Below, piece after piece: positions 5,727 to 15,079 of a DNA stretch of 26,296 nucleotides. The stretch's first letter is position 1; each line of letters begins with the position of its first letter. Both the position numbers and the translations under genes were made by a program. The notes under the pieces are model-generated. The model saw only the letters and a list, made by a program, of their open reading frames with translations, was not told the origin of the DNA and made no database searches. This DNA comes from a virus, in the IMG/VR virus record IMGVR_UViG_3300020405_000018, positions 1 to 26,296 of that record; one strand, written 5' to 3'.

Positions 5727-5971
5727 TCTGTAAGTTTCAAGTATGCTTCAACTACTTCAGGTGTTGGATCTGCGATAGTTAGAATATCACTAGATCTTAT
5801 CATATATTCTGGTTGATTAGAAGCCTCAACCCAGGGTTCCATTTTATCTAAACTTAGAAAACGATACGGTTTAATCAGTTTACAATCTGGATCTCCTATT
5901 TCAGCATCAAGTTCTTCAATTTCTGATATGAGTATGGTTGTACCAACCATCAAACATTTAACATTGTCCAT
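5723..5971 (-). CDS. Small protein, member of a four-copy family in this window (82 aa)
   Basis: Starts at the ATG at 5971 (MDNVKCLMVGTTILISEIEE), which overlaps the upstream stop (TGATG). A TTG one codon earlier is less likely. The layout matches the neighbouring gene at 5971-6309 and those at 10743 and 24281: a short beta-rich start with a G-T/E turn, a central P, a W in the middle, then an I-rich strand and a C-terminal P..V.E.Y helix. The fold looks like a small beta-barrel followed by one helix, similar in outline to Sm-like proteins, but that is inference. Function unknown. It sits directly upstream of, and overlaps, gp43. Confidence 0.75.
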   Translation of the reverse strand: MDNVKCLMVGTTILISEIEELDAEIGDPDCKLIKPYRFLSLDKMEPWVEASNQPEYMIRSSDILTIADPTPEVVEAYLKLTE

Positions 5972-6309
5972 CAAACAACCTCAGTTTGAGTTACTTCTGT
6001 ATTTGCTGCTGCTACTTTAGCTTCATACATTTCCAACACCGATGGTAATGGATCACAAATAGTTGCCACAATATCAGTAGTAATTACAAATTCTTTATCC
6101 GCAGAAAGCAGCATCCAAGATCTAAGAATTACATCTAATTCGTAGTTATTATTTAAAGTATCACCTTCCATCAAGACAGTTTTCTCTTGAGTTGTAACAG
6201 TTTGAGGATTATTCAATAGATAACCTCTAGTCTGTTCCTCTTGGACAACTTCTTTAGCGTCTGTGATAATTGTTTCTCCCGTCTTTAGGAGCATCAGTTT
6301 AATTGCCAT
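5971..6309 (-). CDS. Small protein, member of a four-copy family in this window (112 aa)
   Basis: Begins MAIKLMLLKTGETIITDAKE. The TGE turn, the NNPQTV segment, the LRSWMLLSADKEFVITTDIV block and the closing P-S-V-L-E-M-Y-E helix are shared with three other small proteins in the window. The ATG is preceded by a strong GGAGGAA ribosome binding site and an extended -10 element, so this is probably the first gene of the unit running into gp43, uvsX and gp41. No known enzyme motif is present. A nucleic-acid or protein adaptor role is a guess. Confidence 0.8.
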   Translation of the reverse strand: MAIKLMLLKTGETIITDAKEVVQEEQTRGYLLNNPQTVTTQEKTVLMEGDTLNNNYELDVILRSWMLLSADKEFVITTDIVATICDPLPSVLEMYEAKVAAANTEVTQTEVV

Positions 6310-6320
6310 GATTAATTTGT

Positions 6321-6340
6321 TTCCTCCAAGTATTATAGCA
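6321..6340 (-). promoter_or_regulatory. Extended -10 promoter and Shine-Dalgarno site before the polymerase operon
   Basis: Read on the minus strand, TGCTATAAT (6340-6332) is a perfect extended -10 element, and GGAGGAA (6327-6321) is a strong ribosome binding site 11 nt before the ATG at 6309. No good -35 hexamer is visible, as is usual for extended -10 promoters. The element lies just after the ndhD stop, so it could separate expression of the replication operon from ndhD. Confidence 0.6.
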
Positions 6341-6343
6341 TGT

Positions 6344-7879
6344 TTAGACGGTTGGTGGGGTAAAAGTCCGAACCAATTGTGGGCGAACTAATGCTGCCTT
6401 ATCGCGAGCAACCAACGCATCAATTGAACTCTTATATGTATCTGTCATAATCCTGGGATACAATCCAATCACAATGATAGGAACCAGAAGAGCACTCACA
6501 ATGTAAACCTCACGAGGTTCGGCATCCACCAGATTGGTATGAGCGACCAGTTCAGGGTTCGGTTTACCGTAGAAGATTTCTCGAAGCATTGAAAGCAGAT
6601 AGATTGGAGTGAGGATAACACCAATGGCAGATACAAAACAGAGTGCAACACGGAATGGAAGAGCATACACAGTATCGGTAGCAAATCCAGTGAAGACCAT
6701 TAGTTCACTAATAAATCCACTCATACCAGGAAGAGCAAGAGATGCCATAGAACACATCACCCACAGGGCAAACATAACTTTCATACTCTTACCAACTCCA
6801 CCCATCTCATCCAGTTGGAGAGTATGAGTTCGATCATACGTTGCTCCCACCAGGAAGAACAGAGAGGCACCAATCAATCCGTGACTGATCATCTGGAGCA
6901 TCGCACCACTAGTACCAAGAGCACTATAACTACCAACACCAATAAGTACGAATCCCATGTGACTGATCGAACTATATGCGATCTTCCGTTTGAGATTCCT
7001 CTGTGAGAAAGATGTGAGTGCTGCGTAGATAATATTCACAGCACCCATAATAATCAGTGCTGGTGCAAATACCTTATGTGCTTCTGGAAGAAGTTGACAG
7101 TTGAATCGCAGAAGAGCATATCCACCCATCTTGAGTAGGATACCCGCCAGCAGCATATGAACTGGTGCTGTTGCCTCACCGTGGGCATCGGGCAACCAGG
7201 TGTGGAATGGAACGATCGGCAGTTTTACACCGAAAGCAATCAGGAATGCACCATAACACCAAAGTTGGAAGTTCGGCGGGAAACCCTGCTCCATCAGATA
7301 GGTGTATTCAAAGTTAGGTGTTCCAGTCCAGAAACCCATCGCCAGTCCTGCGAGCAGAATGAATAGAGAACTACCAGCAGTGTATAGGATGAACTTTGTA
7401 GAAGCATACTGGCGTTTCTTACCACCCCAGATAGAAATCATCAGATACACCGGAACAAGTTCAAGTTCCCAAGATAGGAAGAACAAGATAAGATCTTGTA
7501 CCGCAAAAACCATAATCTGCCCACCATCCATCAACAGAAGTAAGAAGTAGAACAGTTTTGGTTTGAATGTAACTGGCCAAGCAGCAAGTGCCGCCAGACT
7601 TGTAATGAAACTAGAAAGCAGAATAAGAGGCATTGAAAGACCATCTGCTCCTACAGACCAGGAAAGTCCTAGTTGAGGAACCCATGTATATTTCTCCGCC
7701 ATTTGAAGACTACTAATATCAGGATCGTATCCATTAACGTATCCCGCTACTGTAATCAAAAAAGTAATTAGTGTGACGCCAAGTGAATACCACTTAACTA
7801 CCTTGTTCCCATCTGGGAGCAGAGGAATAAACAACGCACACGCAATTGGAAATAAAATTGCTAGACTCAACCAGGGCAT
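6344..7879 (-). CDS. ndhD: NAD(P)H-quinone oxidoreductase subunit 4 (NdhD), phage-borne
   Basis: 511 aa, strongly hydrophobic, with roughly 14 membrane spans, full length for the NdhD/NuoM family. Residues corresponding to those needed for proton pumping in E. coli NuoM are present: E138 in LSWELELVP, K219 in GVKLPIVPFHTWLPDAHGEA, K250 in LLKMGGYALL and E392 in SGFISELMVF. The conserved KRKIAYSSISHMGF segment is intact. In cyanobacteria NdhD is a distal antiporter-like subunit of NDH-1 in the thylakoid membrane, which takes electrons from ferredoxin and reduces plastoquinone in respiration and cyclic electron flow. The frame has no stops or gaps. The N terminus begins right at the first membrane span, a little shorter than host NdhD as I recall it. 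No Shine-Dalgarno is visible. No other ndh gene is in the window, so the product must join host NDH-1. Confidence 0.95.
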   Translation of the reverse strand: MPWLSLAILFPIACALFIPLLPDGNKVVKWYSLGVTLITFLITVAGYVNGYDPDISSLQMAEKYTWVPQLGLSWSVGADGLSMPLILLSSFITSLAALAAWPVTFKPKLFYFLLLLMDGGQIMVFAVQDLILFFLSWELELVPVYLMISIWGGKKRQYASTKFILYTAGSSLFILLAGLAMGFWTGTPNFEYTYLMEQGFPPNFQLWCYGAFLIAFGVKLPIVPFHTWLPDAHGEATAPVHMLLAGILLKMGGYALLRFNCQLLPEAHKVFAPALIIMGAVNIIYAALTSFSQRNLKRKIAYSSISHMGFVLIGVGSYSALGTSGAMLQMISHGLIGASLFFLVGATYDRTHTLQLDEMGGVGKSMKVMFALWVMCSMASLALPGMSGFISELMVFTGFATDTVYALPFRVALCFVSAIGVILTPIYLLSMLREIFYGKPNPELVAHTNLVDAEPREVYIVSALLVPIIVIGLYPRIMTDTYKSSIDALVARDKAALVRPQLVRTFTPPTV

Positions 7880-8193: not shown

Positions 8194-8628
8194 TTAGAGA
8201 TAATCCTTCCTTTGATGATGTTCTGGAACTACTTTACCAAGTTCAATACTCAGCAACCCATCCTCAAAGCTAACTGATCTAACTTCCGTCTCGTCACTGA
8301 GGGTCCATGATCTAGTGAAAGATCTTTGAGCCATTCCTCTATGGACGTATGTTGTTCCAGATTCTGTGTCTTCTTTTTGTCCTTCGACAAAAAGTTTTCC
8401 GTCTTGTGTGTAGACATTGATTTCTTCTTTTTTAAAACCTGCGAGTGCTAGTTCTAAGCGGTATTCTACATTGCTTAGTTGAACTAGGTTGTATGGTGGG
8501 TAGTTACTTTGCGTCTCGTGCAGCGATCCAAGACGGTCAAAGTAATCATCCATACCGATACTGTACCTATTTATACGATCCATCAGCTCAGGCAGATCCT
8601 TCGTATGAAACTTCATTAAGTTCCCCAT
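8194..8628 (-). CDS. hsp20: Small heat shock protein (Hsp20 family)
   Basis: 144 aa from the ATG at 8628 (MGNLMKFHTKDLPELMDRIN), chosen because AAAGGAG lies 9 nt upstream. The longer frame to 8688 has no such signal. The alpha-crystallin domain runs from YNLVQLSNVEYRLELALAGF to DGLLSIELGKVVPEH, with the typical YVHRGMAQRSFTRSWTL strand pair and an ending EHHQRKDYL. Family members are ATP-independent holdases that bind unfolding proteins in the cytoplasm. T4-like cyanophages often carry one, perhaps to aid virion assembly or protect host photosynthetic proteins. A TATAAATA late-promoter match lies about 60 nt upstream. Confidence 0.93.
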   Translation of the reverse strand: MGNLMKFHTKDLPELMDRINRYSIGMDDYFDRLGSLHETQSNYPPYNLVQLSNVEYRLELALAGFKKEEINVYTQDGKLFVEGQKEDTESGTTYVHRGMAQRSFTRSWTLSDETEVRSVSFEDGLLSIELGKVVPEHHQRKDYL

Positions 8629-8637
8629 GGTTATTAG

Positions 8638-8644
8638 CTCCTTT
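8638..8644 (-). promoter_or_regulatory. Strong ribosome binding site for hsp20
   Basis: AAAGGAG on the minus strand, 9 nt before the ATG at 8628. It decides the start in favour of MGNLMKF over the 20-residue longer open frame. Confidence 0.75.
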
Positions 8645-8660
8645 AAAAGCGAGTTTGTTT

Positions 8661-8687
8661 TGTGTGATCCCCGAAGGCAATCACACA
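8661..8687 (-). other. Hairpin with UUCG loop upstream of hsp20
   Basis: Minus strand: an 8-bp stem TGTGTGAT / ATCACACA enclosing CC-TTCG-GG. No T run follows, so it is not a standard terminator. It abuts the TATAAATA at 8688-8695. If transcription began at that late promoter most of the left arm would be lost, so the full RNA hairpin forms only in read-through transcripts. It may otherwise act as a DNA palindrome. Confidence 0.6.
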
Positions 8688-8695
8688 TATTTATA
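8688..8695 (-). promoter_or_regulatory. Late promoter (TATAAATA) for hsp20
   Basis: An exact T4 late-promoter octamer on the minus strand in intergenic DNA, correctly placed for hsp20. gp55, encoded in this window, is the sigma factor that recognises such sites. TGC precedes TATAAA, so host RNA polymerase might also use it as an extended -10. Confidence 0.6.
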
Positions 8696-9353: not shown

Positions 9354-9730
9354 CTTTTTCCTCCAGTGTCAAATTTCGATTTAATAACGTTAAGTTGTTC
9401 TTCTGTGAGAATTTTCAAAGCTTGCTTTGCCTTTTCATTACTATAACCATAATAACGTTTGACATAATCAAGGTCTTTGATTTTATCTTGTCGGAGCCAG
9501 GGAGAAAATCTCTTCTTTTTCCTCAGACTATTTAGATAAAAATCATATTGAAGTTTCTTTGGGAGGAAATGATGCTGATTCATTTCATTAGCAAACATTA
9601 CAGCATCAAGATGTCCAGAAAAACATCGATTGACAATGTATGGAGGATATTCTTTTTCAAGTGATGGATCTTCCTCAATCAGATTCTCTTTGCTCTGATT
9701 GATGCTGTTCAACCAATCCTTCAATTCCAT
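9350..9730 (-). CDS. 62: Clamp loader small subunit gp62
   Basis: 126 aa starting MELKDWLNSINQSKENLIEE, with the segments PPYIVNRCFSGHLDAVMFAN and SLRKKKRFSPWLRQDK that I associate with cyanophage gp62. It has no ATPase motif. In T4 one gp62 joins four gp44 subunits to open and load the gp45 clamp. It is shorter than T4 gp62 (187 aa). Its place next to regA is conserved, but here it is separated from gp44 by about 2.8 kb. Its first 56 nt are inside the end of the dam gene, an unusually long overlap. Confidence 0.85.
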   Translation of the reverse strand: MELKDWLNSINQSKENLIEEDPSLEKEYPPYIVNRCFSGHLDAVMFANEMNQHHFLPKKLQYDFYLNSLRKKKRFSPWLRQDKIKDLDYVKRYYGYSNEKAKQALKILTEEQLNVIKSKFDTGGKR

Positions 9731-10547
9731 AATTAAAAAGTAAAAGTTCCTTGCGTTCTTTTTGTTCTCTCATATACTCACCAACAGATCTCATGGTGTA
9801 TGTGAGGTCGAACTCTCCTGTTTGGTATTCTTTAAAGCGGTCCTTAATAAGTTGAGACGAATTGTAAGAAATAAGTTGAGCACCATTATACAGAGCACAG
9901 TCGGCAGCAAAATCATCATGGTCGAACCCGCTATGCATACTCCCCCGCTTCCCATAGAGATTACTTCGAATGTCATAGGGCGGGTCAAGGTAGGTAAAGC
10001 ACTCTTTGTCATTAGTAAGGAGTGATTCATAAGACCAATTAGTAATTTTCCAATCTTTGATTATTTGAGTGTATCCCTGTAGTTTTTCAATTCCTCGCAT
10101 TGAGAAATTATTGTCTGAAGCTTGCTTTGAGAATGATGAGGATTCTGTGAGACCAGAAAAAGAGCACTTATTGATAATATAAAAAGCACAAGCGCGATAT
10201 AAATTTGGTTGAGAGTGGTCATTTACTATCTCCTTTGCTTCTAAAAATAAACCTTTAGCAGATGCCGGTTCTGGATATCTAGACTTCAGTTCTTGAAGTC
10301 TTTTATATAAACGGTATCCATCATCTCTTAGAGTTATCCAAAAATTTACAAGAGGTTCATAAAAGTCGTTAACCCACACTTTAAGATGTGGATACTTCTT
10401 AGTGATATGAATTGCTACGCTACCACCACCAAGAAATGGTTCGCGATACTCATCATAATCACGAAGATCTGGAATATAGACATCCAGTTTAGTGCAGGCA
10501 CGGGATTTACCGCCCGGATAGCGTAATGGTGTTTTCAGGGACTTCAT
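9675..10547 (-). CDS. dam: DNA adenine methyltransferase (Dam/D12 class)
   Basis: 290 aa. LRYPGGKSRA near the N terminus (SAM-binding motif X), YREPFLGGGSVAIH (FxGxG motif I) and TYLDPPYDIR (motif IV, DPPY) define an alpha-class N6-adenine methyltransferase. The recognition site cannot be read from the sequence; GATC is possible. It has no visible restriction partner, so it is likely a solitary modification enzyme that protects phage DNA or marks it. The start overlaps the upstream gene by 41 nt and the C-terminal part overlaps gp62. The inserted position suggests acquisition into the replication cluster. Confidence 0.92.
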   Translation of the reverse strand: MKSLKTPLRYPGGKSRACTKLDVYIPDLRDYDEYREPFLGGGSVAIHITKKYPHLKVWVNDFYEPLVNFWITLRDDGYRLYKRLQELKSRYPEPASAKGLFLEAKEIVNDHSQPNLYRACAFYIINKCSFSGLTESSSFSKQASDNNFSMRGIEKLQGYTQIIKDWKITNWSYESLLTNDKECFTYLDPPYDIRSNLYGKRGSMHSGFDHDDFAADCALYNGAQLISYNSSQLIKDRFKEYQTGEFDLTYTMRSVGEYMREQKERKELLLFNYGIEGLVEQHQSEQRESD

Positions 10548-11657: not shown

Positions 11658-12539
11658 TCAGGAAATAAATTTACGATAGCAACCGGTGAGGGTTTTTGGA
11701 TCCAACTTACTAGGAGTAATATTAAGAGCAATTGATCCATCAGATTTTTTAAGGATCCTGTCCATGGCAACACAAAGCATCATGTACAGAACTTTGAGTT
11801 TACCTTCATTACTTTCATTCCATGTGTGTTCTTTCCAATACTCAACAAAATCAGAAGTCAATCGACAGGTAGAATCTCCTAAAAGTTCTGCTTTAAGCAG
11901 ATCCAAAAATGCCTCTGCTTCATCACCAAGTTTAGCATTGACACAAAGAGTTACGAAAGCACCAATGGTTTTCTTTTGCGAAGAAAAATCCTCAGTATCA
12001 GTTAAAAATGAATTACAGATTTTCTCTGCTTTTTTAATATCATCCTTCCAATCAAACCATTTTTTAACAGCATTGTTGATTGTCAGTTTTGGTTTTCCTC
12101 CCTTACGAATCAATAGATCTCCAAGAATAGCAGTTTGAGATGCCTGTGCTGTGTTGTCCTTTCTATAAATTTCATCATGAGGACGACGAGGTTTAGCAAT
12201 CGCGGCGTTAGAAAATGAATCTGGTTGTGCTCCAAGAACAACTGCTGTTTCATATTCACCAGAATCTTGATTAGCAATAAAAGTTAATCTATGTTGACTT
12301 TCATTGATGTCACCGTTTGTATTAAAAATAACGGGATCACCAGTAAACAACCATCCAAAAGTAGCGACAGATTGTGCAATTTTATTTACTTGAGATGGGC
12401 ATATTTTTCGGTTGTCTTTATTGTGATGTTCAAGAATATACCTTGCCATCACAGGTGTCATTTTTATAACCATTGAATCTCTCACCTGTGATTTTGGATC
12501 AAAGGAAAGAGGGGTTGTCTGTTTAATAATTTCGTTCAT
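11658..12539 (-). CDS. ParB-like domain protein, 293 aa
   Basis: The N-terminal 110 residues follow the phage and bacterial ParB-like pattern: MTPVMARYILEHHNKDNRKI, then SQVNKIAQSVATFGWLFTGDPVIF and GDINESQHRLTFIANQ. The usual DGQHRL core is changed to ESQHRL, so Gly-Gln is replaced by Ser-Gln with an acidic residue before. A helical region (TAILGDLLIRKGGKPK to the C terminus) follows. ParB-like proteins bind DNA, and some have CTPase or nuclease activity; none can be assigned here. The ATG overlaps the gp44 stop (ATGA). Confidence 0.7.
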   Translation of the reverse strand: MNEIIKQTTPLSFDPKSQVRDSMVIKMTPVMARYILEHHNKDNRKICPSQVNKIAQSVATFGWLFTGDPVIFNTNGDINESQHRLTFIANQDSGEYETAVVLGAQPDSFSNAAIAKPRRPHDEIYRKDNTAQASQTAILGDLLIRKGGKPKLTINNAVKKWFDWKDDIKKAEKICNSFLTDTEDFSSQKKTIGAFVTLCVNAKLGDEAEAFLDLLKAELLGDSTCRLTSDFVEYWKEHTWNESNEGKLKVLYMMLCVAMDRILKKSDGSIALNITPSKLDPKTLTGCYRKFIS

Positions 12540-13477
12540 TTGAATTCACACTCCACCATAAGTTCAGTTAAACATGCCAACATATTAATTTCCTGATCTG
12601 CTACAAACGCTGCTTGATACTGATACTTAGCGAGAACAAGGACAGCAGCAGGAATAGAACCAGGAACCAAGGCTTCGTAAAGAGAGTCATAAATGCGACG
12701 GAGAAGTACAGTAGTATCATTATCCAGATTACTAACGATCCACTTTCGCACCTCAGCAAAGTTTTTACCTTTGAGATTTTTGACCAGTTCATTTACCGCG
12801 ACATCTGAAAACGTTGCAAGAATCCCCGAATCAATCTTACCACCCACCGAGTATCGTTGGATTTCGTTGAGGACACGTCGCCAATCTGGGAAGTGTTTGT
12901 TGATGAGCTCAACGAGTACTTTGTTGTCGTACTCAACTCCTTCTGCGTCGAGAATTTCCCGAATCCGTTTAAAAAAGTTGGCAGCGATTGACTGTCGGTC
13001 TTTACCTTTGATGCCAAATTCAATGACGGCACAACGGGAATGGAGGGGTTCAAGAATTTTGTTCTTGTAGTTGCAGGTGAAGATGAATCTGCAGTTACCG
13101 GCAAATTCCTCAATAAACGCCCTAAGTAAGAGTTGTACATCATTGGATGTGTTGTCTGCCTCATCGATGATGATGACTTTGTGTTTAGAAGTTGCCGTAA
13201 GCGAAACGGTCGAAGCGAAGTTCTTCGCATTATTTCGGACGGTGTCCAAGAATCGCCCCTCATCGGATCCATTGATGACATAAACATCTGCTCCAAGTTC
13301 GTTACAGAGAGCCTTAGCAACTGTGGTCTTACCAATTCCTGGAGGACCAGCAAGAAGCATATTAGGAATCTCTCCTTTATCTAGGAAGTCTTTAAAAGTC
13401 TTTTTTGTTGATGCTGGAAGAATACACTCATCAATAGTCTTAGGTCGATATTTTTCAACCCAGATAAAATCACTCAT
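12536..13477 (-). CDS. 44: Clamp loader large subunit gp44 (AAA+)
   Basis: 313 aa from the ATG at 13477 (MSDFIWVEKYRPKTIDECIL), which aligns with T4 gp44. An ATG-less extension to 13501 is not needed. Walker A is GPPGIGKT (residues 44-51), Walker B VIIIDEADN, and SRCAVIEF is the sensor/arginine-finger SRC motif. It ends ELMVECEFK, like T4 gp44. Four copies plus gp62 use ATP to load the gp45 clamp. The ATG overlaps the stop of the preceding COQ4-like gene (ATGA). Confidence 0.95.
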   Translation of the reverse strand: MSDFIWVEKYRPKTIDECILPASTKKTFKDFLDKGEIPNMLLAGPPGIGKTTVAKALCNELGADVYVINGSDEGRFLDTVRNNAKNFASTVSLTATSKHKVIIIDEADNTSNDVQLLLRAFIEEFAGNCRFIFTCNYKNKILEPLHSRCAVIEFGIKGKDRQSIAANFFKRIREILDAEGVEYDNKVLVELINKHFPDWRRVLNEIQRYSVGGKIDSGILATFSDVAVNELVKNLKGKNFAEVRKWIVSNLDNDTTVLLRRIYDSLYEALVPGSIPAAVLVLAKYQYQAAFVADQEINMLACLTELMVECEFK

Positions 13478-13797
13478 AATATTGTTTTGGGAATAAACCA
13501 ATAGGATACAGATTGCCAGTATTTTCCAAGCAAATATGCTTTATAAAAATCCCGGAGATCTTTCAAACCATTACGATAATCTTTTGGATATATCGTAATA
13601 CTCATAATACAGAATACCACAACGTGAAAGAAATTTCCAGCAGGGTGATGTCCTAATTGGAAACCAAGAAGTTTGGCTTCATCATTAATACTAAATCCAA
13701 GATCAAAGTGTGTATGAAGTTGATCGTGGAGTTTAGTATCTTCACCTATTCCTGGTATCCAATTTTCTAAAAATTGAATATAGGGATCAGGTTCCAT
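13474..13797 (-). CDS. COQ4-like mini-protein (quinone biosynthesis family)
   Basis: 107 aa. Residues H24-D25-x-x-H28-x11-E40 (sequence KLHDQLHTHFDLGFSINDEA) reproduce exactly the HDxxHx11E zinc-ligand motif of the COQ4 family. The continuation also fits the family: AKLLGFQLGHHPAGNFF after the glutamate, a hydrophobic helix, then YRNGLKDLRDFYKAYLLGKYW and a closing W-F-I-P. COQ4 proteins act in ubiquinone synthesis and a cyanobacterial homolog is known to bind an isoprenoid lipid. This protein is under half the usual length (about 220-265 aa) and keeps mainly the metal-site half. It lies between gp45 and gp44. A plastoquinone or isoprenoid-related role is inference. Confidence 0.6.
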   Translation of the reverse strand: MEPDPYIQFLENWIPGIGEDTKLHDQLHTHFDLGFSINDEAKLLGFQLGHHPAGNFFHVVVFCIMSITIYPKDYRNGLKDLRDFYKAYLLGKYWQSVSYWFIPKTIL

Positions 13798-13993
13798 AAT
13801 AAGAAAATAATTTACTTACTCCAATAGTAACAAGAAATGAAAGCATGATTACCATATCCCACATTCGATGTTTAATGAAATATGGAAGAGTAAATACGTC
13901 AGCAAATAAATGCACTATAACTCCAGACAACACACTCACGTAAATTATAGTGAAGTGAGAGCAAACAATTAGAGTGCATCCAATCACTCGCAT
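13787..13993 (-). CDS. Small two-span membrane protein, 68 aa
   Basis: The ATG at 13993 is 1 nt after the gp45 stop, so I take MRVIGCTLIVCSHFTIIYVS as the start rather than the longer open frame that would run back into gp45. Two hydrophobic segments (about residues 3-25 and 46-62) flank HLFADVFTLPYFIKHRMWDM. Its last 11 nt overlap the start of the COQ4-like gene, so the two are probably co-translated and may work together at a membrane. No family recognised. Confidence 0.65.
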   Translation of the reverse strand: MRVIGCTLIVCSHFTIIYVSVLSGVIVHLFADVFTLPYFIKHRMWDMVIMLSFLVTIGVSKLFSYYGT

Positions 13994-13994
13994 T

Positions 13995-14681
13995 CTATTC
14001 AAAAGTTGAGTCTGGTTCAAGAGCAATATAATAAGTAAGATTGTACTTGGTGTTTGTAAACTTTGAAAGAAGTTTAGAAGAAACAACTACATCATAGGCA
14101 CCAGGAATAATCTTGATGTTTTCTACTTTGAAGTTGAAGGTGAATTCTTTTTCAGTTTCACCAACAACGATGGCATATTCATTAGAAGTATCATTCTTCT
14201 TGTCACGAACAACCAATTTAATTACTCCTGCTTCGCCAACAGCACAGAAATCAGGAAGTTGATAAACTTGTGCTGCCTTGATTAGTTTTTCCAGAGAAGA
14301 ACTATCAAGTTGGAAACAAACATCCTGAGTAGGAAGTGTAATATCTTTCTCCGGTGGAGAAACAATTACAGCGGGATCAGCATAGAAATACTTAACACGA
14401 CGCTTACCTTCTTTGATACTAAGATAAGAGTCTTCCTTGAAATCTAGGTCAGGATCCTGGTGAAGACTAAGACCATTAAGGAACTGATTGAGATCGTAGA
14501 TAGCAAAGTCCCTAGGGAAGTCTTCTTTGATATCTGCCTCAGCAAGAATGTTCTTAGCAACAGAAATGGTACGAAGACGACTACCTTCTTTTACTAGAAT
14601 CGAATTATTGATACCAGCAAAGTTCTTAAGAACAGTGAGGGTGTTGTCAGACAGTTTCATTGTATTAGGATTCAATTTCAT
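13995..14681 (-). CDS. 45: Sliding clamp gp45
   Basis: 228 aa from the ATG at 14681, which overlaps the upstream stop (TGATG). A second ATG seven codons later (MKLSDNTLTVLKNFAGIN) matches the T4 gp45 start and may be the true one. Conserved blocks include FAIYDLNQFLNGLSL, FYADPAVIVSPPEKDI, FTFNFKVENIKIIPGAYDVVV and the ending YYIALEPDSTFE. It forms a trimeric ring that tethers gp43 and, in T4, also activates late transcription with gp55 and gp33. Confidence 0.95.
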   Translation of the reverse strand: MKLNPNTMKLSDNTLTVLKNFAGINNSILVKEGSRLRTISVAKNILAEADIKEDFPRDFAIYDLNQFLNGLSLHQDPDLDFKEDSYLSIKEGKRRVKYFYADPAVIVSPPEKDITLPTQDVCFQLDSSSLEKLIKAAQVYQLPDFCAVGEAGVIKLVVRDKKNDTSNEYAIVVGETEKEFTFNFKVENIKIIPGAYDVVVSSKLLSKFTNTKYNLTYYIALEPDSTFE

Positions 14682-15079
14682 CACTGGGGGTAAGTTTCAC
14701 GCTTAGCGTTTTTGTCGTTGAAGTGCATCAGAAGAACTGCATAATGCAGAATCTTCATGATATCACGGCGGGCAGTGCCTTTCTTATCATAGCGAGAGGC
14801 ATACTTGAGAATGTTACTGCGGCAGAAGGATTCGCCATCACCACAGGCTTCAATCAGATCAAGTGTTTGAATTTTATCGTCACCGGCAGAGTAATGTTGA
14901 TTATATGTGCCAGTAATATAATCTTGTAATTCCTTGAGGATAGTATCCTCACTATATTTGTACTTATTTGATTTTGCTTTTTCGTCCATGTTCACAATAA
15001 AAGTTGATGTATCAATATCATCAAATGTAATAACGTCGTCGTTCATAGCATCATAAAGAAAACTCCAAGCATTAGTCAT
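14681..15079 (-). CDS. DUF3310-like protein
   Basis: 132 aa from the ATG at 15079 (MTNAWSFLYDAMNDDVITFD), 4 nt after the stop of the ATPase gene; a longer frame would overlap that gene. The C-terminal half, YNQHYSAGDDKIQTLDLIEA, then FCRSNILKYASRYDKKGTAR and DIMKILHYAVLL, follows the phage DUF3310 pattern (H-Y, then IEA, F-x-x-x-N-I-K-Y, R-x-x-K-K, D-x-x-K-x-x-x-Y). The biochemical role of DUF3310 is not established. The N-terminal half is acidic and unrecognised. Confidence 0.75.
   Translation of the reverse strand: MTNAWSFLYDAMNDDVITFDDIDTSTFIVNMDEKAKSNKYKYSEDTILKELQDYITGTYNQHYSAGDDKIQTLDLIEACGDGESFCRSNILKYASRYDKKGTARRDIMKILHYAVLLMHFNDKNAKRETYPQ

Follow-up and report, generated by a model that had tools for sequence, protein, structure and literature searches.

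Genomic setting of the mini COQ4-like gene

The DNA analysed here, hereafter the window, is a viral record of 26,296 nucleotides (IMG/VR record IMGVR_UViG_3300020405_000018). On its minus strand, an ORF running from 13797 to 13474 encodes a 107-aa protein (P0001), referred to below as the mini protein, in which H24, D25, H28 and E40 of an HDxxH-x11-E motif stand exactly where the initial annotation had put them. The H24-D25-Q-L-H28 codons occupy positions 13714–13728 and the E40 codon positions 13678–13680, followed by the codon of another histidine, H58, at 13624–13626 (all minus strand). By chance, the motif appears in 0.07% of shuffles of the mini protein. A promoter scan gave matches near the level of shuffled sequence.

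Along the minus strand, the gene order is gp45 (sliding clamp; 13995–14684), a gene for a small hydrophobic (membrane) protein of 68 aa (phrog_2318; 13787–13993), the mini gene (13474–13797) and gp44 (clamp loader; 12536–13477). The position between gp45 and gp44, which form the upstream and downstream borders of a cargo slot, had been recognized correctly, but the additional phrog_2318 gene towards gp45 went unmentioned. The start of the mini gene overlaps the phrog_2318 ORF by 11 bp and its stop overlaps gp44 by ATGA, so that it is probably co-translated with gp44. In most T4-like carriers, the gp45–gp44 slot holds the mini gene, while in other cyanophages it holds speD, denV, a 2OG-Fe(II) oxygenase gene or other cargo. 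The phrog_2318 gene accompanies the mini gene in part of the relatives. Relatives of phrog_2318 itself occur in 232 phage records, often immediately ahead of the mini gene, and its product could be a membrane partner of the mini protein.

Elsewhere in the window, the minus strand encodes a full-length NdhD-like NDH-1 subunit of 511 aa (6344–7879; Proton_antipo_M, E = 1.8e-66), 84–85% identical to NdhD of three Synechococcus phages, as well as a D12-class adenine methyltransferase (9675–10547) and an HSP20-type heat-shock protein (8194–8688). NDH-1 reduces plastoquinone, and co-occurrence with ndhD was considered as support for a quinone role; it was set aside, ndhD being absent from all 24 other carrier records, many of which are partial.

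Distribution, conservation and origin

Relatives of the mini gene were located in viral contigs at 96 confirmed places in one scan and 115 in another, giving at least 115 places. Besides the T4-like phages, carriers include five S-TIM5-type isolate phage records, in which the gene (77% identity, annotated 'hypothetical protein') is located away from gp44 and gp45, a contig with podovirus-like DNA polymerase genes (L080) and a contig with sugar-metabolism genes (L072). Photosystem genes of the psbA/psbD family are present in nine of 24 carrier records, among them all six of at least 129 kb.

H24-D25-x2-H28-x11-E40 is kept in every aligned mini-family relative, and across 28 aligned sequences, which include more distant proteins at ~25% identity (the bridging family described below), E11, G16, H24, D25, H28, E40, A41, G45, F46 and G49 are invariant. 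Purifying selection on the mini gene is strong: dN/dS between the window copy and the 12 phage copies with finite dS ranges from 0.027 to 0.132 (the RCC307 row, being out of frame, was left out). Broken copies also occur: that of S-TIM54 has a premature stop, and those of three host genomes (L109, L110 and L207) are interrupted by a stop or a frame break; intact copies are known elsewhere beside these. The mini gene, with its ORF, its relatives, the selection acting on it and a confident helical model of its product, is thus a real, selected and conserved gene, as had been observed.

When 390 cyanobacterial-class genomes were searched with a profile combining phage and host copies, the mini gene was identified in a small number of Synechococcus-like genomes. 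Any member at all (E ≤ 0.001) was found in only 15 of 400 sampled host-family genomes, mostly in the bridging form. In a tree of phage and host copies, whose bootstrap is not fully settled, the phage copies constitute one clade (support 96/95) nested in a grade of Synechococcus copies, including that of RCC307. This placement inside the Synechococcus grade indicates that the mini gene is host-derived, and a single host-to-phage transfer would be the simplest reading of the sequences.

Relationship to COQ4

Searches of Pfam, NCBIfam, PHROGs and PDB sequences with the mini protein alone returned no match. The Pfam Coq4 model did not match the window either, and other mini members and the bridging proteins likewise fall below its gathering cut-off; a weak match to HutD (E = 0.56–1) covers only ~20 residues and was dismissed. 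The initial expectation of a Coq4 profile match was therefore not borne out for the window protein by itself, for which direct hhalign comparison of the mini family with COQ4 gave 22%, with the motif in register. Given this silence of the libraries, relatives were needed to reach COQ4.

Such relatives were provided by the mini-family profile over the 390 cyanobacterial-class genomes, which identified ~20 longer proteins (~150–200 aa, E down to 1e-13) with the pattern HDCLHxLLxRGxSLxDEAFVxGFTMGND...YPxxYRF...VRxxLGI. This bridging family (e.g. L111–L131 and L165–L180) has no match in Pfam or NCBIfam. It shares with the mini protein the core HDxxH...DEAFVxGFTMGND...YPxxYRF (98% in hhalign), but is longer, carries WLLENPxSPxALPG as a lead-in, resembles COQ4 at its C-terminus and is only ~25% identical to the mini protein. 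Further members were found in viral contigs, Nostoc plasmids and Streptomycetaceae plasmids. The viral contigs L165–L180, several of which have terminase-like or structural-gene-like ORFs adjoining the longer bridging form, form a viral branch of their own within the unnamed family.

The neighbours of the bridging genes were considered as evidence on quinones, and none ties the family firmly to them. A xanthine/uracil-type (purine-type) permease gene, directly after the bridging gene in five cyanobacterial genomes (L189, L190, L192, L193 and L198) whose bridging proteins are mutually close, is the sole neighbour that recurs. In RCC307, a bridging copy adjoins ureC. On the Streptomycetaceae plasmid CP108401.1, a bridging gene (5956–6564 of the segment 5956–8955) and a second gene, likely of the bridging family, have an ABC1/UbiB (COQ8-type) kinase gene as their neighbour; tblastn placed the family at two sites in this record.

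Against COQ4, the bridging family aligned at 89–92% in hhalign (best 92.4%, 97 columns); the motif is in register, and the alignment extends to the C-terminal VR..LGI. Controls with reversed profiles and unrelated neighbour families gave 0.1–0.8%. A local COQ4 model built from full-length cyanobacterial COQ4-family proteins placed 138 of 173 mini and bridging ORFs above every unrelated and reversed ORF. Its E-values, to be read as a ranking within 6,525 ORFs from the loci collected in this analysis and not as those of a database search, were 0.0005 for the best mini protein and 0.35 for the window protein, compared with 1.2 for the first unrelated ORF (none fell below 1) and 3.7 for the best reversed decoy.

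The predicted structure of the window protein comprises five helices (pLDDT 91.2, pTM 0.84); helix 21–30 bears H24, D25 and H28, and E40 is close to the N-terminal end of helix 37–50. Foldseek searches with this model against the PDB and against viral models gave no match. A bridging protein was also modelled with confidence (pLDDT 89.1, pTM 0.86), and for this model the two top-ranking entries among 350,542 PDB chains were both chains of the Nostoc COQ4 homologue Alr8543 (6E12). Their probabilities were 0.63 and 0.80, and those of all subsequent matches at most 0.09; with a TM-score of about 0.46 and E = 0.54–0.57, the match is not significant on its own.

HDxxH-x10-13-E is the metal motif of COQ4, and in 6E12 its residues hold Mg2+ while the protein binds lipid (PMC9774615). 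The mini protein has this motif in exact and invariant form, and it resembles the COQ4 family (PF05019; human and yeast COQ4, Alr8543, PDB 3MSQ) in being helical with the motif in register, in the ExxLxxF conserved past the glutamate and in a glycine of the next helix. The A-x-L-x-x-F pattern reported earlier downstream of the motif is correct; in the Y-R-N-G pattern, YRN is nearly conserved, but the glycine is not. In contrast to COQ4 proteins of ~220 aa, the mini protein has about half the length, as had been pointed out; it lacks the N-terminal region, beginning ~23 residues before the motif, as well as the C-terminal WE..W..pl..R..LgI tail, and it has an additional conserved GHH and H58. 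The latter is invariant in the mini family and frequent in cyanobacterial bridging proteins, but is no feature of the full-length cyanobacterial COQ4-family proteins collected here. Because of the missing N-terminal region and tail, and a score below the Pfam cut-off, the mini protein counts as a minimal COQ4-superfamily variant and not as a member of Pfam Coq4, and its earlier description as a minimal metal-site form fits.

Discussion

Several lines of evidence, all of which depend on the bridging relatives, make COQ4 homology of the mini family highly probable. The COQ4 relationship proposed in the initial annotation is hence supported in part, namely by the ranking under the COQ4 model, the bridging-family alignments and the first rank of 6E12, and not by the window protein alone, with its empty Pfam and PDB searches and its low direct alignment score. 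The host origin of the gene, its wide spread and the bridging family had escaped that annotation.

If the mini protein were instead a small helical metal protein without common ancestry with COQ4, in which HDxxH-x11-E arose by convergence, the silence of the curated libraries, the empty Foldseek search with the window model and the 22% of the direct alignment would be readily understood. We nevertheless regard shared descent as the better account and convergence as improbable, as the COQ4 model ranks the family above all unrelated ORFs, collinearity extends past the motif and a blind fold search with the bridging model returned 6E12 first. The location in the slot bordered by the sliding-clamp and clamp-loader genes raises another possibility, that of a replication accessory protein, in line with the ATGA overlap with gp44 and with the slot being shared by most T4-like carriers. 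However, S-TIM5-type phages, the podovirus-like contig and host genomes carry the gene away from gp44 and gp45, and in other cyanophages the same slot is filled with speD, denV, the oxygenase gene or other cargo, which leaves a replication role very improbable.

A more serious challenge concerns function: the protein may be a COQ4 homologue by descent with another job, either binding metal and lipid and acting on a different substrate (another isoprenoid, a fatty acyl or a small metabolite) or serving as an adaptor, with no part in quinone synthesis. Its half-size form without the N-terminal region would suit such a role, as would the permease adjoining the bridging gene in five genomes, ureC beside it in RCC307 and the oleic acid contained in the 6E12 structure. 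Moreover, with members in only 15 of 400 host-family genomes, the gene is evidently not needed for plastoquinone. Since the metal site is fully retained, and the kinase gene near a bridging relative on one actinobacterial plasmid hints at quinones, we consider this reading somewhat unlikely.

Overall, we lean slightly towards the mini gene being a minimal COQ4-superfamily member and a host-derived auxiliary metabolic gene, most likely linked to quinones. This explanation starts from parts that are directly supported (the gene, its conservation and selection, the remote homology, the host origin and the genomic slot) and extends them to metal binding, substrate and benefit. It envisages a small all-helical protein reduced largely to its HDxxH-x11-E metal site, and a gene acquired once, probably from marine Synechococcus-type hosts, that would then have spread among unrelated cyanophage groups, settling in the gp45–gp44 slot of T4-like phages. 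By analogy with Alr8543, H24, D25, H28 and E40 would bind a divalent metal, and the protein may handle a prenylated aromatic or another lipid, most likely in quinone metabolism. COQ4 replaces the carboxyl at ring carbon C1 with a hydroxyl in one oxidative step and is thought also to organize the CoQ complex (PMC11495197, PMC12938788). The mini protein might catalyse a comparable C1 step, or it might hold the intermediate for a host enzyme. The benefit would be a plastoquinone pool kept working while the phage drives photosynthetic electron flow in its host.

A quinone role appears plausible, and function is far less certain than descent. Against such a role, the hosts already possess full COQ4-family genes, members are sparse in hosts and gene neighbours do not point to quinones. 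Synechococcus RCC307 encodes four full COQ4-family genes (L100, L103, L105 and L106), even though the quinone in cyanobacteria is plastoquinone. Like psbA, psbD, ndhD and other auxiliary metabolic genes of cyanophages, the mini gene is host-derived, sits in a cargo position, is under strong purifying selection and forms a phage clade within host sequences; unlike them, it has no annotation as an auxiliary metabolic gene, and its metabolic role is putative. None of the papers searched links COQ4 to cyanophages.

The bolder proposal that the mini protein is a stand-alone, half-size COQ4 enzyme with which cyanophages remodel or repair the plastoquinone pool during infection is, in our judgement, unlikely. 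If true, we would know of no earlier viral enzyme for isoprenoid-quinone biosynthesis, and the COQ4 reaction would need only ~85 residues around the HDxxH-x11-E site. That reaction was assigned only recently, and a natural 107-aa version under strong selection would offer a ready minimal model for it. The bridging family fills a gap in the family databases that spans cyanobacteria, actinobacteria and phages. With a gene of this sort widely distributed in phages, quinone handling would join the known means by which marine viruses influence photosynthesis.
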